This document shows positions 4,765 to 59,320 of a stretch of DNA of 64,000 nucleotides, one piece after another. Location of the stretch: assembly GCF_005222755.1 (NCBI RefSeq), contig NZ_STGD01000012.1, positions 124,001 through 188,000 of the forward strand, in the 5' to 3' direction. Origin of the DNA: Roseomonas sp. HF4 (GTDB taxonomy: Bacteria > Pseudomonadota > Alphaproteobacteria > Acetobacterales > Acetobacteraceae). Position numbers and translations under genes: made by a program. Positions within the stretch are counted from its first letter, which is position 1. Every line of letters begins with the position of its first letter. The notes under the pieces are model-generated. The model ran no database searches. It had not been told where the DNA came from and was given only the letters and a program-made list of their open reading frames with translations.

Positions 4765-4859
4765 CCGCACTTCCTCGGCACCTGGCGCCGGGTCTGGGAG
4801 GCCGGGCGCCAGGTGCCAAAGAAGGGAGGGGGATCTGGGGAGGTTCACCTCCCCCGACC
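4765..4859. repeat. Intergenic hairpin repeat, family A copy 1
   Basis: Two inverted repeats fill the gap between convergent azlD and the CoA-transferase. The first pairs GGCACCTGGCGCC (4777-4789) with GGCGCCAGGTGCC (4805-4817), a perfect 13-base match. The second is GGGGAGGT/ACCTCCCC at 4837-4854. The AAGAAGGGAGGGGG string between them recurs near 22030 and 37070. The convergent position suggests a two-way transcription stop, but there is no T-run. Confidence 0.7.
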
Positions 4860-6056
4860 TCACTTGATGGCTCCCGCCGCCCGCAGCGCCGCGATCCGCG
4901 CCTCGTCGAGCCCCGCCCGCCGCAGCATCTCCTCCGTCGCCTCGCCCATCGCGGGCGCCGCGACGGCCGGCGGCAGGGCGCCGTCCACCCGCACCGGGCC
5001 GCGCAGCATGCGAACGGGCTCGCCGCCCTCGCGCCGCGCGAAATCCGCGACCGCCCCGCGTTCCGCCACGAAGGGGTTGTCCAGCGCCTCGCCCACGTCG
5101 AGCACGGGTGCCGCCGGCACCACGCCCTGCAGCATCGTCAGCCATTCCGCCGTGTCGCGGGCCGAGAAGGCCTCGTCCATCAGGGTCGTCAGTTCGTCGC
5201 GGTTCGCGAGCCGCGCCGCGAAATCCGCGAAGCGCGGGTCGGTCGCCCAGCCCGGGCGGCCGATGCGCTCGGCCAGCAGCGGCCAGAACTTCTCCTTGTT
5301 GCACATGATGAAGATCCAGCCGTCCCGCGTGCGGTAGAGCTGCGTCGGCCCAAGCGAGGGATGCGCGCCGCGCCGCTCCCGCCCCTGGACGACGCCGGCA
5401 TTCTCGCGCCAGGCGGCCAGGTAGGTGAGGTTGTGCAGCGCCGTGTCGAACAGGCTCACGTCCATGTCGGCGCCACGCCCGGTCGCGCGCGCGCCCAGCA
5501 CGCCCGAGACCAGCGCGAAGGCCGCCATCAGCCCGGTCATCATGTCCACCACTGACAGGCCGAAGCGCGTCGGCGGCCCGTCCGGCTCCCCGGTCACCGC
5601 GAGGTAGCCGGCCTCCGCCTGCATCAGGTAGTCGTAGCCCGGCCAGGCGCGGCGCGATCCTTCCCGCCCATAGGCCGACAGATGCGCGCAGACGATCGCC
5701 GGGTTCACGTCGGCCAGCGCATTGTAGGTCACGCCGAGCCGCTCCGCCTGGTCGCCGCGCAGGTTGTCGAGCACCGCATCCGCGCCGCGCGCCAGTTCGC
5801 GGAAGGTGGCGAGCCCGTCCGGGTGCTTGAGGTCCAGCGCGACGCTGCGCTTGTTGCGGTTGAAGGCGTGGAAGAAATGGGAATCGCCGGGCGCGAAGAA
5901 ATGCGGCCCGACATGGCGGCCGACATCGCCGCCGTCGCGCGGGTTCTCGATCTTCACGATCTCGGCGCCGAGGTCGGCGAGCAGCATCGAGCCGAAGGGC
6001 CCGGCGCCGTACTGCTCGACGGCCAGCACCGTCACGCCTGCGAGCGGCCCGGCCAT
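4860..6056 (-). CDS. CaiB/BaiF-type (family III) CoA-transferase
   Basis: 398 residues, a typical length for family III. It opens with PLAGVTVLAVEQYGAGPFG, then has LADLGAEIVKIENP and the NRNKRSVALDLK segment characteristic of the family. The aspartate in LSVVDMMTG, near residue 175, fits the catalytic Asp position. These enzymes move CoA between carboxylic acids in catabolic pathways; the substrate cannot be read. It stands alone, downstream of the SYLF gene on the same strand. A second, only distantly similar family member lies at 56080-57195. Confidence 0.92.
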   Translation of the reverse strand: MAGPLAGVTVLAVEQYGAGPFGSMLLADLGAEIVKIENPRDGGDVGRHVGPHFFAPGDSHFFHAFNRNKRSVALDLKHPDGLATFRELARGADAVLDNLRGDQAERLGVTYNALADVNPAIVCAHLSAYGREGSRRAWPGYDYLMQAEAGYLAVTGEPDGPPTRFGLSVVDMMTGLMAAFALVSGVLGARATGRGADMDVSLFDTALHNLTYLAAWRENAGVVQGRERRGAHPSLGPTQLYRTRDGWIFIMCNKEKFWPLLAERIGRPGWATDPRFADFAARLANRDELTTLMDEAFSARDTAEWLTMLQGVVPAAPVLDVGEALDNPFVAERGAVADFARREGGEPVRMLRGPVRVDGALPPAVAAPAMGEATEEMLRRAGLDEARIAALRAAGAIK

Positions 6057-7841: not shown

Positions 7842-8135
7842 ATGACCCGCTTCGCCTTCGTCGTTCCAGCCGGGCATCCGGCGATTCCCGGCCATTTCCC
7901 CGGCCGCCCGGTCGTGCCGGGCGTGGTGCTGCTCGACGAAGTGGCGCGGGCGGCGCGCGGCGCGCTGGCGCTCGGCCCCCTCAGCGCCGTGTCGCGCGTG
8001 AAATTCGCCGCCCCCGTGTCGCCGGGGCAGGAGGTCGCCGTCGAGATCGAGCCCCGCGCGCCGGGGCGGATCGGCTTCGTCTGCCGCGTCGGCGCGGAGG
8101 TGGTCGCCGCGGGCGAGATGGTCTTCGCGCCGTGA
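7842..8135 (+). CDS. FabZ/ApeI-like hotdog dehydratase, short form
   Basis: 97 residues forming one hotdog domain. The FabZ-type active-site signature is HFPGRPVVPGVVLLDEV with catalytic H18. At 97 residues it is much shorter than FabZ (about 150) and closer to the short 3-hydroxyacyl-thioester dehydratases (ApeI type) of aryl-polyene loci. Its stop overlaps the start of the acyltransferase gene (GTGA). That pairing supports a role in making or attaching a polyene or fatty acyl chain. The enzyme class is visible; membership of the pathway is inference. Confidence 0.75.
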   Translation: MTRFAFVVPAGHPAIPGHFPGRPVVPGVVLLDEVARAARGALALGPLSAVSRVKFAAPVSPGQEVAVEIEPRAPGRIGFVCRVGAEVVAAGEMVFAP

Positions 8136-9031
8136 CGGCCGGCTGGGCGGCCACGCGCCCGCGCGGCGCCGGGGGGCCGCTGCGGCTGATGGCGCGCATC
8201 GCCCTCGGGCTCGGCTGGCCGGTCGCGCAGGCGCTGCTGCATCCCATCACGCTGTTCTACCTCGCGACCTCCCCCGCGGCGCAGAAGCGCGCGGCGCGGC
8301 GCTACCTGGCGCGGGCGCTCGGGCGGAAGGCCGGGCGCCGCGACCTCTGGCGGCTCTATTTCTGCTTCGCGTCCACCATGCTCGACCGCGTGTTCCTGCT
8401 GACGGGGCGGAGCGCGGGCTACGAGGTCGCGATCGAGGGGCTCGACCTGCTGCGCGCCGCGGCCGAACGCGGGCAGGGGGTGGTGCTGCTCGGCGCACAC
8501 ATGGGGTCCTTCGAGGCGCTGCGGGCGGTGGGCGGCGCGGGCGCGCCGGTCGAGGTTCGGATGCTGATGCACACCGACAACGCCGGCGCGGCCGATGCGC
8601 TGTTCGACAGCCTGGATCCGGGGCGCGCCGCCGCGATCATCCCGCTCGGCCGGCCCGAGGCGATGCTGGCCGCGAGCGAGGTGATCGAGCGCGGCGGCGT
8701 CATCGGCCTGCTGGCCGACCGCGCGCCGCGCGGCGACCGGATGATGACGGTGCCCTTCCTCGGTGCCGAGGCGCCCTTCCCGGTCGGCCCCATCGCCGTC
8801 GCCGCGCTGCTGAAGGCGCCGGTGGTGCTGGGCTTCGGCCTCTGGCTCGGGCCGCGGCGCTACCTGCTGCGCTTCGAGCCCTTCGCCGCGCGGATCGATC
8901 TGCCGCGCGCCACGCGGCAGGCGGCGCTGCACGAGGCGCTGCTGCGCTACACCGACCGCGTCGCCGCGGTCTGCCGCGCGCACCCCTACAACTGGTTCAA
9001 CTTCTACGACTTCTGGCAGGAGGAGGAATGA
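8132..9031 (+). CDS. LpxL/HtrB-type lysophospholipid acyltransferase
   Basis: 299 residues. The acyltransferase HX4E motif is visible as GAHMGSFEAL, with a hydrophobic N-terminal anchor near residues 15-45 and the family C-terminal HPYNWFNFYDFW. Such enzymes transfer acyl chains from ACP to lipid A precursors, or to the lipid anchor in aryl-polyene pathways (ApeD-like). Translationally coupled to the preceding dehydratase by GTGA, which favours a specialised pathway rather than bulk lipid A assembly. A 16-base palindrome (9032-9047) follows the stop. Confidence 0.85.
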   Translation: MTAGWAATRPRGAGGPLRLMARIALGLGWPVAQALLHPITLFYLATSPAAQKRAARRYLARALGRKAGRRDLWRLYFCFASTMLDRVFLLTGRSAGYEVAIEGLDLLRAAAERGQGVVLLGAHMGSFEALRAVGGAGAPVEVRMLMHTDNAGAADALFDSLDPGRAAAIIPLGRPEAMLAASEVIERGGVIGLLADRAPRGDRMMTVPFLGAEAPFPVGPIAVAALLKAPVVLGFGLWLGPRRYLLRFEPFAARIDLPRATRQAALHEALLRYTDRVAAVCRAHPYNWFNFYDFWQEEE

Positions 9032-16400: not shown

Positions 16401-16480
16401 CCGGCACCAGGCGCCCCACCCCCCCGGACCTGCGCCCGGTGCGAGGGGGATCGGGGGAGGTTCTCCTCCCCCGCCGTTTC
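16401..16480. repeat. Intergenic hairpin repeat, family A copy 2
   Basis: GGGGGAGG and CCTCCCCC form a perfect 8-base stem at 16453-16472 with a TTCT loop, preceded by a GGCACCAGGCGCC-like string as in the copy at 4777. It overlaps the assumed 5' end of the following hydrolase gene, making that start uncertain. Confidence 0.6.
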
Positions 16481-18211: not shown

Positions 18212-18592
18212 ATGAACAGACGATCGCTTCTCGGCGCGGCGCCGCTCGCACTCGTGGCGCTTGGCCTCGGCGCCTGCACGCGCCCTATCTACAACGTCGA
18301 GCGGCGCAACTTCATGAACTCCGGCACTCTCGCGCAGAGGACCGAGCAGATCCGCCGGGCCGGCGGCGGCCTCGGCTGGCAGATGGACCCGATGCGTCCC
18401 GGCCTCATGCGCGCCACGCTCAACCTGCGCAGCCATGTCGCGGTGACCGAGATCGCCTACGACGAGCAGGGCTTCTCGATCCGCTACGTGGACAGCGTGA
18501 ACCTCGACTACGACGGGACCAGCATCCACAAGAACTACAACAGCTGGATCGAGAACCTCGAGCGCGCGATCAGCCAGCAGCCGGTGCCGTGA
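18212..18592 (+). CDS. Small lipoprotein, paralogue 1 of 2
   Basis: 126 residues. The signal peptide (MNRRSLLGAAPLALVALGL) ends in a lipobox with C22. The mature domain has the conserved words MRPGLMRAT, SIRYVDSVNLDYDG and IHKNYNSW. Its function is unknown. The gene at 20776-21171 encodes a clear paralogue sharing these three words. A GGGAGAGAG ribosome site precedes the ATG. The 3' end overlaps the convergent FAD enzyme gene by 23 bases. Proximity to the aryl-polyene-like genes suggests, but does not prove, an envelope role in that pathway. Confidence 0.85.
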   Translation: MNRRSLLGAAPLALVALGLGACTRPIYNVERRNFMNSGTLAQRTEQIRRAGGGLGWQMDPMRPGLMRATLNLRSHVAVTEIAYDEQGFSIRYVDSVNLDYDGTSIHKNYNSWIENLERAISQQPVP

Positions 18593-19913
18593 CGCGCTCC
18601 GGCACGGGGGGGCGGACCCTGACCAGCCCCTCCGCCCGCAGGCGATAGCCGCAGCGGTGCGCCAGGCTCAGCATGTAGTAGGCCGCCTTGAAGGCGAGCA
18701 CGGGCGGCTGGCGGTTGAGCCTGGCGTGGACGTCGCCGGCGAGCAGGCTGACCAGCCCGTCGCGCATGCGGAAGGTATTGTTGGGCGCCATGAACATGTC
18801 GCGCAGCACGGGCCGGTTGATGCGGTAGATCAGCCAGGACAGCGCATCGATCGCGCCCTTCACCTTGCGTTCGAAGGCGCGCGCCAGCGGCGCCGCGCCC
18901 GCCGGGTCGTCGAGCCAGGCATCGGCGACGTCCGCGCCCATCTCCGCGCTCGTCATCGCGAGCAGTACGCCCGACGAGAAGACCGGGTCGAGGAAGGCAT
19001 AGGCGTCGCCCGCCATCAGCCATCCGTCCCCGTGCATGACCGAGGAGGCGTAGGAGTAGTTGCCCGTGAAGGTGGCCGCGCCGAGCGGCACCGCGTGCTC
19101 CATCCGGCGCGCCACCGAGGGCACGGCGGCCAGCGCGGCGTGGAGGAACGCATCCACGCTGCCCTGGCGCCGCTTGAAGAAGCCGGCATTGGAGACGAGG
19201 CCTATGCTGGTCACGCCGTCCGGCAGCGGGATCATCCAGATCCAGCCTTCGTCGAACAGGTGGACGGTGATGTTGCCGTCGGGTTCGTCCGCGAAGGGAA
19301 GCACGCCGCGGAAATGGCCGTAGATCGCGGCGGTGTTGTTGTGCGGGTTGCGCGCCTTGCTGCCCATGGCGCCGGCCAGGAAGGTGTCGCGGCCCGAGGC
19401 GTCGATCACGTAGCGCGCGCGGAAGGCGTGCGGCGCGCCGCCATCCTCCCGCGCCACGACGCGGTGCCCGGCGCGGGCGTCGAGCGCCACATCCAGCACG
19501 CGCATCCCGTCCCGGGCATCGGCGCCGGCGCGGCGCGCGCGGTCGAACAGCAGCGCGTCGAACCCGGCGCGGGGCACCTGGTACGAATGGGTGTAGGCTT
19601 GGTTCAGCCCGGCGGCGAAGGAGAAGGCGGTGTGCCCCCCGTGCTCGTCCGACACGAAGCGGGCGCCCGGCTTGAACACGCCAAGCGCCGCGACCTCCTC
19701 CCGTACGCCGAGGCGCTCGAAGATGCGGAGGTTGAGCGGCAGCAGGCTCTCCCCGATATGGAAGCGCGGGTGGCGGTCCTTCTCGAGCAGCACGACGCGG
19801 CGGCCCTTTTCCGCCAGCAGCGTCGCGGCAGTGGAGCCAGCCGGCCCGCCGCCGATCACGAGCACGTCGCAGGCGGTCTCGGGCAGGGGCTCGGCAGCGT
19901 GATCGAACGGCAT
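18570..19913 (-). CDS. FAD-dependent oxidoreductase, tryptophan-halogenase-like
   Basis: 447 residues. FAD-binding GGGPAGS at 21-27, GESLLPL at 54-60, DASGR at 171-175 and the GDAYAFLDPVFSSG block place it in the flavin halogenase/geranylgeranyl-reductase-like family. Two features of true flavin halogenases are kept: a lysine in VFKPGARF (K81, at the position of the catalytic Lys79 of PrnA) and WIWMIP (224-229), which fits WxWxIP. Related enzymes occur in aryl-polyene and flexirubin loci, often without shown halogenation. An alternative start is GTG 19919. Confidence 0.82.
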   Translation of the reverse strand: MPFDHAAEPLPETACDVLVIGGGPAGSTAATLLAEKGRRVVLLEKDRHPRFHIGESLLPLNLRIFERLGVREEVAALGVFKPGARFVSDEHGGHTAFSFAAGLNQAYTHSYQVPRAGFDALLFDRARRAGADARDGMRVLDVALDARAGHRVVAREDGGAPHAFRARYVIDASGRDTFLAGAMGSKARNPHNNTAAIYGHFRGVLPFADEPDGNITVHLFDEGWIWMIPLPDGVTSIGLVSNAGFFKRRQGSVDAFLHAALAAVPSVARRMEHAVPLGAATFTGNYSYASSVMHGDGWLMAGDAYAFLDPVFSSGVLLAMTSAEMGADVADAWLDDPAGAAPLARAFERKVKGAIDALSWLIYRINRPVLRDMFMAPNNTFRMRDGLVSLLAGDVHARLNRQPPVLAFKAAYYMLSLAHRCGYRLRAEGLVRVRPPVPERVTAPAAG

Positions 19914-19973
19914 GTCCACTAGGTCCGGTCCGGTTTCGTCGCTACAAGCCGGAACGATACCATCCGGAAGGCC

Positions 19974-20792
19974 GTGACCGAAGCAACCATCGCGATGTCG
20001 GTGCCCGCCCCCCCTCCTGCGGCCGACCCGCACGGAGTCGCGGTGGTCGTGCCCGCCTTCCAGGAAGGCGCGACGATCGCCGCGGTGGTCGAGCGCATCC
20101 GCCGCGTCCTGCCCGGCGCGCCGCTGCTCGTGGTGGATGACGGCTCGACCGACGGCACGGCGGCGGCGGCCGCCGCGGCGGGGGCCGAAGTGCTGGCCCT
20201 GCCCGCGAACCAGGGCAAGGGCGCGGCGCTGCGCCACGGCATGCGCGCGGCGCTGGCGCGGGGCGCGGCCTACGTGGCGACACTGGACGGCGACGGCCAG
20301 CACCGGCCGGAGGACCTGCCGCGCCTCGTCACGCTGGCGCGACCGGACCGCATCGTCATCGGGTCGCGCCGCGGGGCACCCGGCCAGCCTGCGGCCCGGC
20401 GCCGCGCCAACCGGGTGGCGGATTTCTGGGTCTCCTGGGCCGCGGGCCATGCGGTGGCGGACAGCCAGTCCGGCTTCCGCATCTACCCGATGGCCGCGCT
20501 CGCCGCGCTCGACGACTACGAAGGCCGCGCGCGGCGCTTCTCCTTCGAGAGCGAGATCCTGATCGACGCCGCGCGCGCCGGCATCACGACCGTCGCGGCC
20601 GATATCCCGGCCCTGTACGCGGGCACGCTGCGCCGACCGAGCCACTTCAGACCCGTTGCGGATATCGCGGGCATCGTGATGATGGTCGCGGGCAAGTTGC
20701 TCGCGCGCGGGATGGACCCGGCCGGGCTGCGCCGCAGCCTGGCTGGCCGACGGCGCCTGGGACAGGAGGGACGGGATGATCCACCGACGTGA
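19974..20792 (+). CDS. Family 2 glycosyltransferase (DPM1-like)
   Basis: 272 residues of GT-A fold: VAVVVPAFQEG, then DDGSTDGT and the metal-binding DGDGQH, then SGFRIYP. It resembles polyprenyl-phosphate hexosyltransferases (dolichol-phosphate-mannose synthase type) but lacks C-terminal membrane helices. It is divergent from the FAD enzyme, with about 60 bases between starts, and overlaps the following lipoprotein gene by 17 bases. A GT2 enzyme is a frequent member of aryl-polyene loci, where it is thought to modify the head group or anchor. A second in-frame start is ATG 19995. Confidence 0.88.
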   Translation: MTEATIAMSVPAPPPAADPHGVAVVVPAFQEGATIAAVVERIRRVLPGAPLLVVDDGSTDGTAAAAAAAGAEVLALPANQGKGAALRHGMRAALARGAAYVATLDGDGQHRPEDLPRLVTLARPDRIVIGSRRGAPGQPAARRRANRVADFWVSWAAGHAVADSQSGFRIYPMAALAALDDYEGRARRFSFESEILIDAARAGITTVAADIPALYAGTLRRPSHFRPVADIAGIVMMVAGKLLARGMDPAGLRRSLAGRRRLGQEGRDDPPT

Positions 20793-21171
20793 CGCGCTGC
20801 GCCGCAGCATGCCGGTCCTGGTCGCCGTGGGGGCGGGCCTCGGCCTCGGCGCCTGCCGCGCGGAGCCGCTCTACCAGAGCACGAATGGCCAGTTCCAGGG
20901 CCGCGGCAGCCTTGCCGAGCGCGAGGCGCTCATCCGTCGCGCCGCGGCGTCCCAGGGCGGCTGGTCGGTGCAGTCCATGCGCCCGGGGCTGCTGCGCGCC
21001 ACCAACACCTGGCGCAGCCACCAGATGACGGTGGACATCGCCTTCGACGTCCGCACCTTCACCATCCGCTATGTGAACAGCGTCAACCTCGACTACGACG
21101 GCACCCGCATCCACCAGGCCTACAATGGCCGCGTGCAGGGACTGGAACGCGCCATCCTGCAGGGCGGCTAG
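20776..21171 (+). CDS. Small lipoprotein, paralogue 2 of 2
   Basis: 131 residues. The N-terminal signal has lipobox LGLGAC with C27. The mature part repeats the words of the 18212 protein (MRPGLLRAT, TIRYVNSVNLDYDG, IHQAYNG). A strong AGGAGGG site sits 5 bases before the ATG, inside the end of the glycosyltransferase gene. The two copies bracket the FAD enzyme and glycosyltransferase genes, so they probably arose by duplication around this locus. Function unknown. Confidence 0.85.
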   Translation: MIHRRDALRRSMPVLVAVGAGLGLGACRAEPLYQSTNGQFQGRGSLAEREALIRRAAASQGGWSVQSMRPGLLRATNTWRSHQMTVDIAFDVRTFTIRYVNSVNLDYDGTRIHQAYNGRVQGLERAILQGG

Positions 21172-21218
21172 GCCATTCTTCGCCTGACCGGCACCGGCCC
21201 GGCGGGCAGGACGCCGCC

Positions 21219-21920
21219 CTACGCCATCCCGCCGTTGATCGAGACGGTCTGCCCCGTGATGTAGCCGGCGCGGTCCGAACAGAGGAAGGCGACCAGGTCC
21301 GCCACTTCCTCGGGCCGGCCGAGCCGCCGCGCGGGCACCATTTGCCGCACCGTCTCGGGCGGCACGGCGGCGGCGATGGCCGGGCTCTCGATCAGCCCGG
21401 GCGCGACCGCGTTGACCGTCACGCCGCGCGGCGCGCATTCCAGCGAGAGCGCCCGCACCGCCCCGATCAGCCCCGCCTTGGCCGCCGCGTAGTTCGCCTG
21501 GCCGCGGTTGCCCATGATGGCCGAGACCGAGGACATCGCCACGATCCGCCCGTGCCGCGTGCCCATCATCGGCAGCAGCAGCGGCCGCGCCACATGGAAG
21601 AACCCGTCGAGCGAGACCGCCATGACGCGGCGCCACTGCGCCTCGGTCATGGCGGCCATCGGCACGTCCTCATGCGCACCGGCATTGTGGACCAGCACCT
21701 GGATGGGACCGGCCTCGAGCAGCGCCTCGCAGGCCACGCGGGCGGCGTCGTGGTCGGTGATGTCGAAGGCGAGGCTCCCGCCGTCGATCTCGGTTGCCAG
21801 CGCGGCGGCGCGCCCGGCGTTGGCATGGGCATGGACGACCACGCGGAAGCCGTCGCGCGCGAGCGCCCGGCATATCGCCTGGCCGAGCGGGCTCGTCCCG
21901 CCGGTGACGAGGGCGCGCAT
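21219..21920 (-). CDS. 3-ketoacyl-ACP reductase (FabG/ApeQ-like)
   Basis: 233-residue short-chain dehydrogenase: NADPH loop TGGTSPLG (6-13), VHNAG (78-82), catalytic S131, Y144 and K148 (YAAAK), and the FabG-type C terminus GYITGQTVSINGG. It reduces 3-ketoacyl-ACP. It is the last gene of the ketosynthase/dehydratase operon, so it fits ApeQ of aryl-polyene pathways rather than housekeeping FabG. Unlike the other joints of this operon, it is separated from the upstream gene by 157 bases of hairpin repeat and has no clear ribosome binding site. Confidence 0.87.
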   Translation of the reverse strand: MRALVTGGTSPLGQAICRALARDGFRVVVHAHANAGRAAALATEIDGGSLAFDITDHDAARVACEALLEAGPIQVLVHNAGAHEDVPMAAMTEAQWRRVMAVSLDGFFHVARPLLLPMMGTRHGRIVAMSSVSAIMGNRGQANYAAAKAGLIGAVRALSLECAPRGVTVNAVAPGLIESPAIAAAVPPETVRQMVPARRLGRPEEVADLVAFLCSDRAGYITGQTVSINGGMA

Positions 21921-21935
21921 CACCGCGGGACGAAT

Positions 21936-22060
21936 GGGGGGGAAGGGAACTTCCCCCCCATGCCCCCCCAACCTTCTTTGGCATTTGGCACCTGACGCCG
22001 GGGACGGGTGCCAGGAAACCAAGAAAGGGAGGGGGTGCGGGGGAGGTTCACCCTCCCCCG
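21936..22060. repeat. Intergenic hairpin repeat, family A copy 3 (three dyads)
   Basis: Three dyads lie between the dehydratase and ketoreductase genes. A perfect 10-base stem (GGGGGGGAAG/CTTCCCCCCC, loop GGAA) occupies 21936-21959. An imperfect dyad of about 20 bases pairs TTCTTTGG...GGCACC with GGTGCC...CCAAGAAA around 21972-22026. An 8-base stem GGGGGAGG/CCTCCCCC occupies 22039-22059. The first lies directly upstream of the ketoreductase start. Confidence 0.7.
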
Positions 22061-22077
22061 CCGCTTGTCCTGTGCGA

Positions 22078-22503
22078 TCATGCCAGCACCACCGTCGCGC
22101 GCCCGGCCAGCACCACCCGCCCGCCGCCGCGCACCTCGAAGCCGTAGATGAAGCCGCGGCTCTCCCGCGCCAGCGCCGTTGCCTCGACCGCGAGCGCACC
22201 CGGGATGTCGTCGAGCCGCTCAACGGCCAGGGTGACGCCGGACAGGGCCGCGACGAAACCCTCGCCCTGCGGCGCCCCGGCCGTGATGGCGCCGTGCAGC
22301 GCCATCGCCTGCAGCCCGTACTCGAGGCCCGAGACGGCCGGCAACGCGCCATCCCGCCGCAGCGGGTTGGCCGCGTCGTGATGCGTCCCGGTCTCGCAGG
22401 CGATGCGCCCGGCGTCGCAGGCCACCACGCGCTCGAGCAGGCACATCGCCCCCTGGTGCGGGATGAGGCGCGCGATCGCCTCCCGCGTCGCGGGCAGCGT
22501 CAT
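22078..22503 (-). CDS. 3-hydroxyacyl-ACP dehydratase (ApeP-like hotdog)
   Basis: 141 residues. The N-terminal LIPHQGAMCLLERV carries the hotdog active-site histidine (H16), followed by the central helix SGLEYGLQAMALHGAI. This PHxGxMxLLDRV type is typical of ApeP and other polyene dehydratases and distinct from FabZ's HFPGxP. Its start overlaps the stop of the upstream gene (ATGA). Role inferred: removing water in each elongation cycle to give the conjugated double bonds. Confidence 0.85.
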   Translation of the reverse strand: MTLPATREAIARLIPHQGAMCLLERVVACDAGRIACETGTHHDAANPLRRDGALPAVSGLEYGLQAMALHGAITAGAPQGEGFVAALSGVTLAVERLDDIPGALAVEATALARESRGFIYGFEVRGGGRVVLAGRATVVLA

Positions 22504-23288
22504 GGCGCCACGGTCACGCGCAGGCACGCGTCCTCCAGCATCGGCAGCCGCACCTCCGCGCGGCTGCCGACCGCCAACGCCGCGAGCAGCGGCAGCGCCC
22601 GCGCGACCGGATTGGCATCGTGCAACGCCGCCAGCGTGGCGGGCAGCGCCGGCGGCGGCGCGGCGCCGTCCTCCGGAGCCAGCGTGAACCGACCGCGCCC
22701 GCCGCCCGCGGGTGCCAGCACCATCGCCACCGCGAACATCTCCGAGGTCGGCCGCAGCGCATCCAGCGGCGGCGGCATCGGCACGTCATGCGCCACGAAC
22801 AGGATGGGCCGGCCGAGTGCCGCCGCCTGCGCCGCAGCATGCAGCAGCCCCGTGGCGAACACGCCGTCATGTCCGCCGAGGCTGACCGAAGGCCGCGACG
22901 AGCCGACGGCGATACCCCAGTACCCCGCCGCCGCGTTGTGCACCGAATTGTGGAACTGCGTCGGCGAGATCGCGCCGTCCGGCGTGTGCAGCGCCTCGAG
23001 AATGGAGGTGATGACCAGGCCCTCGCCGTTCGAACTGGCGAAGACCGTGTCGAGTTCCTCCGGCGGCAGGCCGCTGTCCTGAACCGCCTCGGCCGCCACG
23101 GCCAGGGCGAGGCGCACCGAGGGGCCCGTGCGCCGCCGCTCGGTCGCCGGCAGCAGGCTCGGCGCAGGGGGCGTCAATGGTACCGGCTCGTGCGCGACGC
23201 GGCCGGCGAGCACCGCCGCCGCCGCCGACCAGCCCGGCAGGCCGGGGCCGAGCAGGCCGATCCCCAGGATTCCGGCGGCGAGCGTCAC
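22500..23288 (-). CDS. Cys-less ketosynthase-like protein (chain-length-factor/ApeC-like)
   Basis: 262 residues matching the N-terminal ketosynthase-like family found beside ApeO (FASSNGEG, SPTQFHNSVHNAAAGYWGI). Where a ketosynthase has TACSSG it has SLGGHDGVF (137-144), so it has no active-site cysteine. Its position directly after the active ketosynthase, joined by GTGA, suggests the non-catalytic half of a heterodimer that sets chain length. The length is about two thirds of a full ketosynthase, normal for this family. Confidence 0.85.
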   Translation of the reverse strand: MTLAAGILGIGLLGPGLPGWSAAAAVLAGRVAHEPVPLTPPAPSLLPATERRRTGPSVRLALAVAAEAVQDSGLPPEELDTVFASSNGEGLVITSILEALHTPDGAISPTQFHNSVHNAAAGYWGIAVGSSRPSVSLGGHDGVFATGLLHAAAQAAALGRPILFVAHDVPMPPPLDALRPTSEMFAVAMVLAPAGGGRGRFTLAPEDGAAPPPALPATLAALHDANPVARALPLLAALAVGSRAEVRLPMLEDACLRVTVAP

Positions 23289-24469
23289 GGCAGCCGCCCG
23301 ATCACCAGCGCGCAGTTGCTGCCACCGAAGCCGAAGGAATTGGACAGCACGCGCGCAACCGGCGCCGCCTGGTTCGCGACCGCGATGCGCGCGCCGAAGG
23401 CCGGGTCCGGCCGCGCGAGGCCGAGGCAGCCCGGCACCAGCCCGTCCTCGACGCAGATCGCCGCGATCGCCGCCTCCAGCGCGCCGGAGGCGCCGAGCGT
23501 GTGGCCGGTCCAGCCCTTGGTGGACGAACAGGGCACGCCATCGCCGAAGACATGCGCGATGGCGCGGTCCTCCATGGCGTCGTTCGCGCGCGTGCCGGTG
23601 CCGTGCATGTTGACGTAGTCGATCGCCGCCGGCGCGAGCCCGGCGCTGTCCAGCGCCGCGCGCATCGCCGCCACCGCGCCGAGCCCGTCCGGATGCGGGG
23701 AGGACATGTGGTGCCCGTCCGACGACGCACCCGCGCCGAGCAGCCCGATTGCCCCGGCATCGCCCGGCCCCGTGCGTTCCAGCAGCGCGAAGGCCGCCGC
23801 TTCGCCGATGCTGATGCCGTCGCGGTCCTCGGCGCAGGGGCGCGTCGGGCCCTTCGCGAGCAGTTCCAGCGAGCCGAAGCCATTCAGCGTCAGGCGGCAG
23901 AGCGTGTCCGCGCCGCCTACCACCGCGGCGTCCGCAAGCCCCACCGCGATCAGCATCGCCGCATCGAGGAAGGCGCGCGCGCCCGAGGTGCAGGCGGTCG
24001 AGATCGACACGCAGGGCCCCTTCAGCCCGAGCCGCGCGCGCACGTAGCGCGGCAGCGCGTGCAGGTCGTGCGTGCACGCGAAGTCGTAGCCCGTGAGCGC
24101 ACCGTCCGGCCCGCGCCGCGCCCAGGCGCGCTCGGTTTCCTCGATGCCGGAGGTGGAGGTGCCGAGCACGACCGCGACGCGCGCCGCGCCGTGCCGCGCG
24201 GCAGCCGCTTCGACCGCCGTCATGAAGCCGTCCTGCCGCAGCGCGAGTTCCGCGAGGCGCGTGTTGCGGCAGCCGAAGGCGCCGAGCGGCGCGGGCGGAT
24301 CGATCGCCTCGGCCTCGCGCACCCGGCCGATCCAGATGCCGCCCGGCATCGCCGGCAGGTCGCAGGGCGTCAGGCCCGTGCGACGGTCGAGCAGCGCGGC
24401 GCGCGTCGCCCGGAGCCCGACGCCCATGGCGCTGGTCGCGGTGATGGCAGCGATGCGAAGCGGGAGCAT
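23285..24469 (-). CDS. 3-ketoacyl-ACP synthase (FabF/ApeO-like)
   Basis: 394 residues with the full Cys-His-His triad: C160 in STACTSGA, H289 in MHGTGT and H323 in GWTGHTLGASG, plus the C-terminal SNSFGFGGSN. It performs decarboxylative elongation of an acyl-ACP chain. Chemistry is certain; assignment to an aryl-polyene-type pathway comes from the neighbours (Cys-less partner, PHxG dehydratase, MMPL exporter, LolA-like protein). The start ATG 24469 lies 5 bases after the exporter stop. Confidence 0.92.
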   Translation of the reverse strand: MLPLRIAAITATSAMGVGLRATRAALLDRRTGLTPCDLPAMPGGIWIGRVREAEAIDPPAPLGAFGCRNTRLAELALRQDGFMTAVEAAAARHGAARVAVVLGTSTSGIEETERAWARRGPDGALTGYDFACTHDLHALPRYVRARLGLKGPCVSISTACTSGARAFLDAAMLIAVGLADAAVVGGADTLCRLTLNGFGSLELLAKGPTRPCAEDRDGISIGEAAAFALLERTGPGDAGAIGLLGAGASSDGHHMSSPHPDGLGAVAAMRAALDSAGLAPAAIDYVNMHGTGTRANDAMEDRAIAHVFGDGVPCSSTKGWTGHTLGASGALEAAIAAICVEDGLVPGCLGLARPDPAFGARIAVANQAAPVARVLSNSFGFGGSNCALVIGRLP

Positions 24470-24474
24470 GCCCC

Positions 24475-26784
24475 TCAAGTCGTGGCGTCCCGCCGAGGCG
24501 CCAGGGTGCAGGCGAGCAGGAAGGCGGCCACGACACCGACCGCGACGGTCAGCCCCGTCGCGTGCAGCACCGGCGTGGCGCAGAGCGCGAGCAGGCCGAA
24601 GGTCAGCAGCGTCGTGATCATGCAGGTGATGACGGAACCGAGCGCGCGCGCGGCCTCCTCGTTGCCATCCCGGCCCGAATTCGGCTCGGAACGTGACATG
24701 AACAAGGCATAGTCCATCCCGACGCCGGCCAACAAGAGCGCCGCGGTCAGGTGAAAGACCGTGATCCGCTCGCCCAGCACGGCCAGCGCGGCGAAGGTCA
24801 CGAGTAGCGCGCCCGCCAGCACGCCCGCCACGCGCAGCCCGCCGGCCAGGCCCCGCCCGGCGCCCAGCAGCAGCAGGACCATCACGCCGCCCGCGGCACT
24901 CCAGCGCAGCGCCGTGCCGACCCCGGCGTCGAGCAGCGCCTCGGTCTCCGCCTTGATGTCCACCACCAGCAGGCCGGGCACCGCGGCGGCGGCGCGGCGC
25001 AGCGCCGCCATGTCCTCGATGCCGGAGGGCAGCAGCAGCGCACGCCAGCGCGCGCCCTCCGGCCGCAGCAGCGGCGCGAGGCGCGCCGCGAGGACGGGCG
25101 AAGCGGCCAGGTGGGGCGGCGTCAGCGGCGGCTGCGCGCGCGCCTCGGCCACGGCCGCGAGGAAGGGCGCGAAGGCGCCAGGGCGGAAGGGCAGCCCGGC
25201 CTGCGCGGCCTCGAGCCGCGCCGCCAGCACCTCGGCCGCCGGCAGGGCATCGAGGCGCGCGCGCTGCGTGGCCGCGCTCGGCAGGATGCGGCCCGGGTGG
25301 TCGATGGCGCCGGCCGCGCCCGCGGCCAGCAGCGCGGCGGCGGCGCGCTCGGCGGCCTGCAGCGCCGCCTCGGCATCCGGCGCCGTCAGCGTCAGCACGA
25401 CACGCACGTCGGGCGCGCCGACCTGGCGGCGCAACTCGCCGTCCAGGGCCTGCACCGCGGCCGGCACCGGGCTGAGCGCGGCGAGGTCGCGCTCCAGTCG
25501 CGGCCCGCCCGCCAGCGCCAGCGCCACGGCCACGGCGCCGAGCCCGCCCAGCACCGCACCCCGGCGCGCCGGCAGCCGCAGCAACGCGCGCGAGAGGGCG
25601 TCCGGCAGCGGCCGCACCGGAAGCCCCTCGGGCGGCAGCAGTGCCGGCACCAGCCAGCGCGCCGCCAGCACGGCCGCGATCAACCCGCTCGCGGCGAACA
25701 GCCCGAACTGCGCGAGCCCCGGGAACCCCGCCGCCAGCATCGGTACGAGCCCCGCGACCGAGGTCGCGGCCGCCAGGCGCAGCGTCGGCCAGATGCGTCG
25801 CGCGGCCGTGCGCAGCGCCTCCCCCGGCGCGCGGCCGGTGACGACCAGCAGCGGATAATCCGCCGCGATGCCGAGCGTCGTGATGCCGAAGCCGAGCGCC
25901 GCGCCATGCACGTGCCCGAACACGGCAGCGACGACGAGCGTGCCGGCCAGCGCGCCCGCCGCCAACGCCACGGCCACCACGGCGAGCATGACGGGCGACC
26001 GGTAGCGCCACAGCAGGAAGGCGCCCACCAGCAGCAGCGACAGGATGGAGACGAGCCGCACATCCGCCTGCACCGTCGCCGCCGCCTCCGCCGCGAAGAC
26101 GCCGGGGCCCGAGAGCAGCAGCCGCGCGCCCGGGGGCGGCGCCGCGGCGGCGAAGGCGGCGTGGAAGGCGGCGACGGCCTCGGCCTGCGCATCCGTGTCG
26201 AGGCCGGCCGCGCGGGACTGCGCCAGCAGCAGCGCGCGCGGCCCCTCGGCCATCCAGACGCCATGCGACGTCGCCACGCGCGCCTCCCCCGCCCAGCCGC
26301 GCAACAGGCCGAGGAAGGCGCCGGTCGGGTCGGCGAAGGCGGTGCGGCGCACGAGCGGCGCGGCGGAGGAGCGGAGCCCGTCCAGCACGCCCTCGAGCGC
26401 CGCGCGCAGCGCAGGTTCCGTGAAGGCGTCCGGCCCGGCGGCGGAGAGCGCGTAACGGTGGGCGAACAGCAGCGCCGCCTCCGCCTCCCCCACCAGCAGC
26501 GCGCCGTTCGCGACCATGGCGAAGCGCCCATCCGCCGCCAGCCGCGCGGCCATGGCCTGGGAGATGCGCGCAAGATCGGCTGCTGGCGCGCCCTCGATGC
26601 CCGCCAGCAGCAGCGTCGTGGCCGTGCCGCCGCGCAGTTCCTGCAGCAGGAAGGCGCCCTCGGCGCTCTGCGGCGCGGGTAGGAAGTCGGCGATGTCGCC
26701 ACGGATCTCGACCAGGCGCAGCGTGAGCGCCAGCGCACCGGCCAGCAGCGCGAGCGTGCCGAGCAGCGCGGCCAGCCGCCTCAT
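24475..26784 (-). CDS. MMPL/RND-type exporter (ApeM-like)
   Basis: 769 residues. It has a first helix near residues 5-25, a large periplasmic loop, then five helices around 240-390 and a matching second half with five helices near 630-760, the two-fold RND/MMPL layout. The FHLTAALLLAGVGMDYALF segment near the end is the conserved proton-relay region (GxGxDY). MMPL exporters in aryl-polyene loci move the lipid-linked pigment towards the outer membrane. It is coupled to the LolA-like gene by ATGA. Confidence 0.9.
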   Translation of the reverse strand: MRRLAALLGTLALLAGALALTLRLVEIRGDIADFLPAPQSAEGAFLLQELRGGTATTLLLAGIEGAPAADLARISQAMAARLAADGRFAMVANGALLVGEAEAALLFAHRYALSAAGPDAFTEPALRAALEGVLDGLRSSAAPLVRRTAFADPTGAFLGLLRGWAGEARVATSHGVWMAEGPRALLLAQSRAAGLDTDAQAEAVAAFHAAFAAAAPPPGARLLLSGPGVFAAEAAATVQADVRLVSILSLLLVGAFLLWRYRSPVMLAVVAVALAAGALAGTLVVAAVFGHVHGAALGFGITTLGIAADYPLLVVTGRAPGEALRTAARRIWPTLRLAAATSVAGLVPMLAAGFPGLAQFGLFAASGLIAAVLAARWLVPALLPPEGLPVRPLPDALSRALLRLPARRGAVLGGLGAVAVALALAGGPRLERDLAALSPVPAAVQALDGELRRQVGAPDVRVVLTLTAPDAEAALQAAERAAAALLAAGAAGAIDHPGRILPSAATQRARLDALPAAEVLAARLEAAQAGLPFRPGAFAPFLAAVAEARAQPPLTPPHLAASPVLAARLAPLLRPEGARWRALLLPSGIEDMAALRRAAAAVPGLLVVDIKAETEALLDAGVGTALRWSAAGGVMVLLLLGAGRGLAGGLRVAGVLAGALLVTFAALAVLGERITVFHLTAALLLAGVGMDYALFMSRSEPNSGRDGNEEAARALGSVITCMITTLLTFGLLALCATPVLHATGLTVAVGVVAAFLLACTLAPRRDATT

Positions 26785-27362
26785 GGCAGCGGCGTCGCCA
26801 TCATCCGGCTGCGGCCCTCGTTGCCCTGCGTCTCCACCAGGCGGAGGAAGGCGCCCTCGCCCTCGAGCACGATGCGCTGCACGGCGGCGCGCACGCGGGG
26901 CGAGCGCGGCACCAGTCGGAGGCGCCAGGCGCGCGCATCGCCCGTGAAGGCGACCTCGTGATGCGCCCGCAGGGTCGCGAGATCCCCGGCCAGCGTCGCG
27001 CGGATGGCTTCCACCAGCGGGCGGATCTCGGGCGAAGCGTCGAGGTCGATCGTCTCCCGCACCCCGCGCTGCGGGCGTTCCAGCGTCACGCGGTCGCCCT
27101 CGACCAGGAAGGTCTCGGGCACGGGTTCCAGCGTGCGCTTCTCGAGCCGGTCGGGGGCGCGCCAGAGCAACACGCCGCGGGAGACGAGCGGCCGGTCGAG
27201 CTCCGGCATCTCCTTCTCCTCGACGAAGGCGGCGCGGCTTTCGCGCACGGCGGCCAGGCCCGCCATGACGGCGGCGAGCGGGTCCGGCGCCTGCGCCGCG
27301 AGCGGGAGCGGGAGAGCTAGCGCCAGGAGCGCGCGGCGCGCCACCGCCCCGCGCCGCGCCAT
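26781..27362 (-). CDS. LolA-like periplasmic carrier (ApeL-like)
   Basis: 193 residues. A signal peptide (about 1-24, ending PLAAQA) precedes a LolA-like beta-barrel recognised from RGVLLWRAPDRLEKRTLEP, ETFLVEGDRVTLE and a final WRLRLVPRSP segment. LolA-type carriers shuttle lipid-anchored cargo across the periplasm. Here it is first in the operon and coupled to an MMPL exporter, as in aryl-polyene loci, so the cargo is probably a lipid rather than ordinary lipoproteins. It starts 2 bases after the pckA stop, so it may also be reached by pckA transcripts. Confidence 0.85.
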   Translation of the reverse strand: MARRGAVARRALLALALPLPLAAQAPDPLAAVMAGLAAVRESRAAFVEEKEMPELDRPLVSRGVLLWRAPDRLEKRTLEPVPETFLVEGDRVTLERPQRGVRETIDLDASPEIRPLVEAIRATLAGDLATLRAHHEVAFTGDARAWRLRLVPRSPRVRAAVQRIVLEGEGAFLRLVETQGNEGRSRMMATPLP

Positions 27363-27364
27363 GC

Positions 27365-28960
<1,596 letters not shown>

Positions 28961-37029: not shown

Positions 37030-37110
37030 ATCGCGCCACCTCCCGGTGCCGGTGCCAAAGTCTCGAAGAAGGGAGGGGGTCTCGGGGGAGATTCTCCTCC
37101 CCGACCTTTC
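37030..37110. repeat. Intergenic hairpin repeat, family A copy 4
   Basis: GGTGCCGGTGCCAAAG, then GAAGAAGGGAGGGGG, then an imperfect GGGGGAGA/TCCTCCCC hairpin at about 37084-37102. The order of words is the same as at 4805-4854. It lies between convergent lipid-kinase and oxidoreductase genes. Confidence 0.6.
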
Positions 37111-59216: not shown

Positions 59217-59230
59217 TGCGCAGGGAAGGT

Positions 59231-59320
59231 CGGGGGAGGAGAACCTCCCCCGAGCCCCCTCCCTTCTTGGTCGGAAGGAAGGTTGAGGGGGATGTGGGGG
59301 GAGAAGTTCCCTTCTCCCCC
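59231..59320. repeat. Intergenic hairpin repeat, family A copy 6 (two hairpins)
   Basis: CGGGGGAGG/CCTCCCCCG with loop AGAA (59231-59252) and GGGGGAGAAG/CTTCTCCCCC with loop TTCC (59297-59320), joined by CCCTCCCTTCTTGG, which is the reverse of the AAGAAGGGAGGG word at other copies. The second hairpin ends 8 bases before the MFS start codon. Confidence 0.7.

Follow-up and report, generated by a model that had tools for sequence, protein, structure and literature searches.

An aryl-polyene-type locus of Roseomonas sp. HF4 read as one fragment of a pathway carried in three pieces

We analysed a window of 64,000 nucleotides (nt) from Roseomonas sp. HF4 (assembly GCF_005222755.1, contig NZ_STGD01000012.1, positions 124,001 to 188,000), a draft genome of 56 contigs that we call G000 and in which the window lies on contig C12. 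The subject is a ten-gene locus at window positions 18212 to 27362, which an earlier note, made from the letters of the window alone, had described as an incomplete and rearranged aryl-polyene (APE) locus whose pathway is either completed elsewhere in the genome or reduced to a variant with another primer. In our analysis, G000 probably carries a complete-looking APE pathway of xanthomonadin type split into three fragments, and this locus appears to hold its elongation and export half. An acyl carrier protein (ACP), an ApeG-like membrane protein and an ApeH-like ligase lie on contig C26, so that the pathway has parts elsewhere, as in the first of the two options of the earlier note, and gene order in relatives bears out the rearrangement: the core genes form one run in four of 16 genomes and three pieces in G000.

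Pathway genes inside and outside the locus

All ten locus genes are open frames at the coordinates that the earlier note had given (Table 1), and Pfam or NCBIfam families match seven of the ten proteins as it had described them, whereas the dehydratase and both lipoproteins have no match in either collection. The catalytic residues of the ketosynthase (KS) and the PHxG motif of the dehydratase are exactly those listed there. The APE assignment, with a core like ApeL, M, O, C, P and Q, is upheld by similarity to the E. coli CFT073 ape cluster (weak for L and P) and by the KS tree. We compared 15 pathway proteins with that cluster (E-values scaled to a 17-protein set) and found counterparts by similarity for ApeA, C, E, G, H, I, J (in two halves), L, M, O, P and Q.

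A placement of the KS with housekeeping FabF had been named as grounds for giving up the APE assignment. In a maximum likelihood tree of 32 ketosynthases, some of which, E. coli ApeO included, sit on long branches, the KS instead shares a 25-row group (support 100/97) with E. coli ApeO and 23 cluster ketosynthases. The FabF of G000 and the partial E. coli K-12 FabF stand apart, and we rejected housekeeping fatty-acid synthesis as the identity of the locus. Its best Protein Data Bank (PDB) matches are 6qsp_A (262 bits) and 7f28_B (240 bits), all others scoring 166 bits or less, and the partner protein matches solely their companion chains, 7f28_A and 6qsp_B. We take these two entries to be ApeO:ApeC complexes of Xenorhabdus and Acinetobacter. 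The abstract of PMC8358021 agrees with that identification.

The locus has an ApeO-type KS with an adjacent partner that resembles a KS N-terminal region and a chain-length factor (CLF). This partner had been called Cys-less; it does lack the active-site Cys, but it retains a single cysteine, C255. All 15 close relatives compared share its Gln154, and Gln occupies that column in 43 of the 85 rows of a wider, unrefined alignment, with Leu in E. coli ApeC. Equated by position, with ORF16 in none of the alignments, Gln154 may be the Q166 that a passage of PMC3691225 gives as essential in Lysobacter ORF16. Among 80 related loci (kept out of at least 584; 55 of them are 20 kb or longer), the dehydratase adjoins the partner gene in 79, counted on gene order. 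The claim that nearly all operon joints are ATGA or GTGA overlaps holds for three of five: LolA/MMPL (ATGA), KS/partner (GTGA) and partner/dehydratase (ATGA) overlap by 4 nt, whereas MMPL and KS stand 5 nt apart when counted from the ATG (only an upstream TTG as start would give a TTGA overlap) and the dehydratase and ketoreductase (KR) are 157 nt apart, with a palindromic repeat in the gap.

The family-2 glycosyltransferase (GT2) gene and the two lipoprotein genes were considered as unrelated neighbours, a reading we rejected since GT2 matches the first half of ApeJ and the lipoproteins match ApeA. A hidden Markov model (HMM) of the lipoprotein family, built without E. coli, gives ApeA a score of 88.5 bits, with E 1.5e-24 in a search space fixed at 100,000. 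ApeA-like lipoproteins also adjoin the GT2 gene in similar clusters of distant bacteria, namely L114 (Nitrospira sp. UBA2082) and L143 (Ca. Thiodiazotropha), and this recurrence suggests that such lipoproteins truly belong to the pathway. For the flavin adenine dinucleotide (FAD) enzyme, the two best PDB chains, 8zop_A and 3e1t_A, are halogenases and the third, 3nix_A, is a 'flavoprotein/dehydrogenase'; its WxWxIP motif is, we presume, tied to halogenases. The enzyme occurs in 16 of 35 genus genomes, often unlinked, and in 25 of the 55 long related loci. In G011:C102, G013:C32 and G032:C17 its match contains one TGA, which may mark only a C-terminal end inside the match.

Two further genes in the window, overlooked by the earlier note, lie about 12 kb from the KR gene: an ApeI-like dehydratase and an LPLAT acyltransferase (7842-9031). 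The two halves that E. coli joins in the single protein ApeJ are separate genes in G000. Contig C26 supplies a dedicated ACP (45% to ApeE), a weakly matching ApeG-like protein, a candidate aryl-ACP ligase (29% to ApeH over 311 amino acids (aa); its PDB matches are generic AMP ligases) and a polysaccharide-deacetylase-like gene named by eye. KR, two dehydratases, GT2, acyltransferase, LolA and exporter are all present as well. A genome lacking ACP and ligase partners, the second ground on which the assignment was to be dropped, is not what we found.

The list of missing parts fared unevenly. One ACP and the ligase are on C26, whereas a second ACP and a third KS were not found in the genome and an ammonia lyase is absent. 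None of the 15 pathway proteins corresponds to ApeB, D, F, K, N or R; of these parts, the genome-wide search covered carrier proteins and ketosynthases only. For carrier proteins, PF00550 gives six matches genome-wide with one Ape-type ACP and no ApeF; for ketosynthases, PF00109 gives nine, in FabF, a type I polyketide synthase (PKS), an AcpXL-like locus, the KS and partner of the locus and two thiolases, with no ApeR-like locus. The two weak ketosynthase matches tried as ApeR candidates are both thiolases, and the AcpXL-like locus (C11) and type I PKS (C9) were rejected by their neighbourhood as suppliers of missing parts. In the 55 long related loci we counted ApeR-like genes in 5, ApeF-like in 3, ApeD-like in 12, ApeK-like in 1 and ApeB- and ApeN-like in none, some of these searches being less sensitive because they were seeded with one E. 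coli sequence each. Being rare or unseen there, the second ACP, third KS, thioesterase and methyltransferase appear not to be core in this subfamily, and their absence would be normal; the earlier note's view of the second ACP, third KS and methyltransferase as missing core parts is not supported by these counts.

We propose that the C26 ligase would load an aryl acid onto the single dedicated ACP, and that the KS/CLF-like pair, KR and two dehydratases would extend it iteratively with malonyl units into a conjugated polyene. GT2 and acyltransferase would join the polyene to a lipid anchor, MMPL exporter, LolA and ApeA-type lipoproteins would carry it to the outer membrane; halogenation or oxidation of the ring is probably the task of the FAD enzyme. 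The product is probably a yellow, light-protective pigment.

Table 1. Predicted features of the window and the copies of the palindromic repeat
Feature	Position	Strand	Basis
LolA-like periplasmic carrier (ApeL-like)	26781..27362	-	LolA_3 PF19574, E 3.9e-16; E. coli ApeL 24% over 101 aa, E 0.02, weak
MMPL/RND exporter (ApeM-like)	24475..26784	-	MMPL PF03176, E 2.2e-19; ApeM 30% over 580 aa, 99 bits
Ketosynthase (ApeO-like)	23285..24469	-	C160/H289/H323; NF006618/PRK09185 488 bits, cut-off 407; ApeO 42%, 240 bits
CLF-like partner (ApeC/Lysobacter ORF16-like)	22500..23288	-	no active-site Cys; Gln154; Ketoacyl-synt_2 PF13723, E 5.4e-27
PHxG dehydratase (ApeP-like)	22078..22503	-	motif PHQG; ApeP similarity weak, E 0.006
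Palindromic intergenic repeat, three hairpins	21921..22077	.	between dehydratase and ketoreductase
Ketoreductase (ApeQ-like)	21219..21920	-	FabG-type reductase; ApeQ 43%, 186 bits
ApeA-family lipoprotein, copy 2	20776..21171	+	family HMM
GT2 glycosyltransferase (N-terminal half of E. coli ApeJ)	19974..20792	+	29% over 224 aa to ApeJ 8-226, E 6e-24
FAD enzyme, CndH/CmlS halogenase-like group	18570..19919	-	WIWMIP motif; Trp_halogenase/FAD family match
ApeA-family lipoprotein, copy 1	18212..18592	+	family HMM
pckA	27365..28960	-	immediately upstream of the operon's KS half
Second dehydratase (ApeI-like), detached	7842..8135	+	GHFPG; ApeI 33% over 66 aa, E 3e-9
LPLAT acyltransferase (C-terminal half of E. 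coli ApeJ), detached	8132..9031	+	ApeJ 247-553, 30% over 318 aa, E 8e-32
G+C-rich palindromic intergenic repeat copies	window 4819-4860, 16443-16478, 21921-22077, 37066-37108, 59226-59268; L028 13984-14154		recur in G000 and relatives

The type I PKS on C9 is a large gene (L027 9680-16861) with KS and carrier-protein matches, whose neighbours look glycosyltransferase- and export-like by eye; it belongs to a separate pathway. On contig C3 (L030 6824-9556), epimerase-like, AMP-ligase-like (by eye) and carrier-protein genes stand together, apparently unrelated to the APE pathway.

Cluster layout across the genus

We compared 35 genomes of the genus (Neoroseomonas-like; coded G000 and so on), with a gene caller trained on the genomes compared. 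The partner, ApeH-like ligase, LPLAT, FAD enzyme, ApeA-like lipoprotein and KR are each present in the same 16 genomes, and these form one clade in a polA tree that covers 30 of the 35 genomes. The very long branches on which G015 and G020 join in that tree seem to reflect a wrong reading frame. In four of the 16 (G015, G003, G010, G030) the core is a single run of eleven genes: ACP, ApeG-like, ligase, ApeI-like dehydratase, LPLAT, LolA, MMPL, KS, CLF-like partner, dehydratase and KR. G006 and G018 are compatible with one run, since in both the contig stops within the exporter gene (neither ACP nor ApeG was seen in G006). Two pieces about 12 kb apart occur in G020 and G021; in G000 the window carries two pieces and C26 a third. 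Ligase and dehydratase are separated by about 4.9 kb of genes of ABC-transporter type (by eye) in G028 and G016, and by about 10 kb of other genes in G001 and G032; in G011 and G013 the two lie on different contigs. KR is detached from the dehydratase in G001, G004, G011, G013, G028 and G032, with G016 unclear. No ApeG-like match was found in the fetched stretches of G001, G011, G013 and G032, which form one subclade; in G001 (L082), ACP and ligase are directly adjacent.

In a concatenated tree of eight proteins for the 16 genomes, whose outgroups lack two of the eight and sit on long branches, G000, G020 and G021 form one branch (88/91). The minimum number of changes on this tree is 3 for ligase|dehydratase (H|I), 1 for LPLAT|LolA, 2 for dehydratase|KR and 2 for KR|lipoprotein, with G016 omitted for the last two joints and three of 16 inner forks open. 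We also measured joint distances in 50 long related loci outside Neoroseomonas, where a partner more than 10 kb away would escape detection. There, the distance is at most 400 nt for ligase and dehydratase in 37 of the 38 loci with both (one partner undetected in 8), for acyltransferase and LolA in 33 of 34 (10), and for dehydratase and KR in 38 of 45 (4), the other seven being 432-1169 nt apart. Because these joints are kept close outside the genus, the contiguous cluster is most likely the ancestral state.

The ancestral operon would then have been broken twice in the G000 lineage, at acyltransferase|LolA and at ligase|dehydratase. The former break, common to G020 and G021, would have put the KS half behind pckA: in all three genomes only 2 nt separate the pckA stop from the LolA start, a spacing that makes read-through from pckA into the LolA operon likely. 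A promoter scan, limited to sigma-70-like sites, found none.

Functional state, repeats and competing readings

The pathway frames of G000 are open and the checked motifs intact. We estimated the ratio of nonsynonymous to synonymous substitution rates (dN/dS) for 13 pathway genes and polA between G000 and the four contiguous-cluster genomes, with pairs of comparable distance among those four as control. Mean values run from 0.08 (ACP) to 0.46 (ApeG) in the G000 pairs and from 0.10 to 0.50 in the controls, and they are close gene by gene; LolA is lower in the G000 pairs (0.39 vs 0.50) and polA stands at 0.18 and 0.19. These values are consistent with function after the split, though no proof of it.

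The palindromic repeat was considered as a cause of the breaks. The window holds 5 copies of its strict core, where 100 dinucleotide shuffles gave 0.01 on average, and of the 11 strict-core copies in about 223 kb of G000, 10 lie outside called genes. The copy at 21921-22077 folds into three hairpins at -98 kcal/mol (z -5.76), and the repeat has no Rfam match at the gathering score. Over the fetched stretches of all 16 genomes we found 22 strict-core copies, 8 of them at pathway joints. These 8 fall at the four breaking joints and at no others: H|I (G020 and G021; in G000 immediately past the ligase), LPLAT|LolA (G015, G003, G030), dehydratase|KR (G000) and KR|lipoprotein (G028). A looser pattern with two mismatches adds two non-breaking joints, ApeI-like dehydratase|LPLAT in two genomes and MMPL|KS in one; it is uninformative, giving about 13 matches per 64 kb of shuffled sequence against 9 in the window. 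A causal role of the repeats is weakened, and gap-tolerant joints may accept both repeats and breaks.

Several points weigh against reading the three pieces as one working APE pathway. The E. coli matches of LolA, ApeP and ApeG are weak, the co-occurrence in 16 genomes counts as one evolutionary event and not 16 independent ones, and dN/dS of the FAD enzyme is somewhat higher in the G000 pairs (0.34 vs 0.24). A misjoin is possible in a 56-contig draft, but the joints lie inside contigs. What the sequence shows is that the genes are present and homologous, how they are ordered in relatives, and that their dN/dS is low; from this we infer product, starter, export route, halogenation and pckA-linked expression. 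G000 also has no recognised aryl-acid source: UbiC (PF04345), FkbO/Hyg5-type (PF21168) and ammonia-lyase (PF00221) families are all without a match. Of 14 control genomes, 1 reached the cut-off for PF04345, 0 for PF21168 and 5 for PF00221, so the PF21168 test is weak. Aromatic ammonia lyase was sought in G000 only, and XanB2 presumably falls in PF21168.

This gap, together with the distant ligase and its generic PDB matches, could mean that the ligase loads a fatty or other acid and that the product is a plain polyene lipid. We consider this unlikely, given that the ACP (45% to ApeE), the KS (42% to ApeO), the halogenase-like enzyme and the polysaccharide-deacetylase neighbour fit the xanthomonadin/arcuflavin type. 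Ubiquinone synthesis also requires hydroxybenzoate, so a missing UbiC does not show that hydroxybenzoate is missing. UbiC supplies the E. coli APE pathway from outside the cluster, and for that reason we did not count a hydroxybenzoate-source gene as defining; the aryl acid, if any, comes from an unrecognised source.

It is very unlikely that the locus is a decaying remnant whose scattered genes no longer cooperate and are heading for loss. Operon joints were broken repeatedly in the clade, one subclade gave no ApeG-like match, and 19 of the 35 genomes lack the sampled genes; but the frames and motifs of G000 are intact, dN/dS stays far under 1 and averages about the same as in contiguous-cluster pairs, and the six sampled genes are retained in all 16 clade genomes. 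Contigs misjoined at repeats are a highly improbable origin of the three-piece layout, even with a repeat 36 nt past the ligase on C26, as two other assemblies (G020, G021) share the pckA|LolA joint in a two-piece layout and the repeat core is missing at the dehydratase side and at the hemD|orf10162 side.

The reading of the locus as one fragment of a complete-looking pathway could be carried further, into a fuller account that we put forward tentatively and hold to be rather doubtful as a whole. An operon would have been dismantled while in use, with one clade of 16 genomes keeping a working pathway in one, two, three or more unlinked pieces, breaks falling only at repeat-settled joints, a fragment captured behind pckA and pigment synthesis thereby tied to gluconeogenesis, and an aryl starter supplied by a not-yet-recognised enzyme. 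The usual assumption is that biosynthetic clusters stay together or get lost. Here one clade retains the sampled genes while the pathway lies in one, two or three pieces, which makes the causes and costs of operon breakage testable in close relatives. A complete pathway can seem incomplete when one locus alone is read, and the hydroxybenzoate source is a separate, testable gap.

Comparison with known systems

The gene set resembles xanthomonadin and arcuflavin clusters more closely than the E. coli ape cluster, judging by the halogenase-like FAD enzyme, the polysaccharide deacetylase and the single ACP. Xanthomonadin clusters with a single ACP are known according to a passage of PMC8253772, whose Table 1 lists no halogenase for E. 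coli CFT073; ApeJ is a single gene there and two genes in G000. Lysobacter enzymogenes, as far as the passages of PMC3691225 describe it, shares a KS with the CLF-like ORF16, ACP, KR, two dehydratases, a LolA-type carrier and the dolichyl-phosphate-mannose-synthase-like ORF15; it differs in having one cluster, no halogenase in that description, and ORF5, a XanB2 homologue.

Passages of two antiSMASH surveys bear on the wider family. One reports APE clusters with a probable halogenase in 19 of 43 acidophilic Acetobacteraceae (PMC8776678), and the other reports APE clusters, called xanthomonadin, in five genomes of Group VI, i.e. Neoroseomonas, a group whose size one passage gives both as n = 12 and as 17 (PMC8414978). 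Neither account describes a break-up of the cluster in these passages.

A precedent for the layout is Azoarcus sp. BH72, whose arcuflavin genes, in the relevant passages of PMC3949708, lie in two unlinked loci: one with polysaccharide deacetylase, LolA, exporter, acyltransferase, dehydratase, ligase and ACP, the other with KS, KS N-terminal protein, dehydratase, reductase, glycosyltransferase and halogenase. That strain also encodes a XanB2-type chorismatase, of which none was found in G000, and a methyltransferase. Both the Neoroseomonas APE clusters and the two-locus Azoarcus pathway are already published; the pathway of G000 is likewise split, but into three pieces and with LolA and exporter on the KS side.

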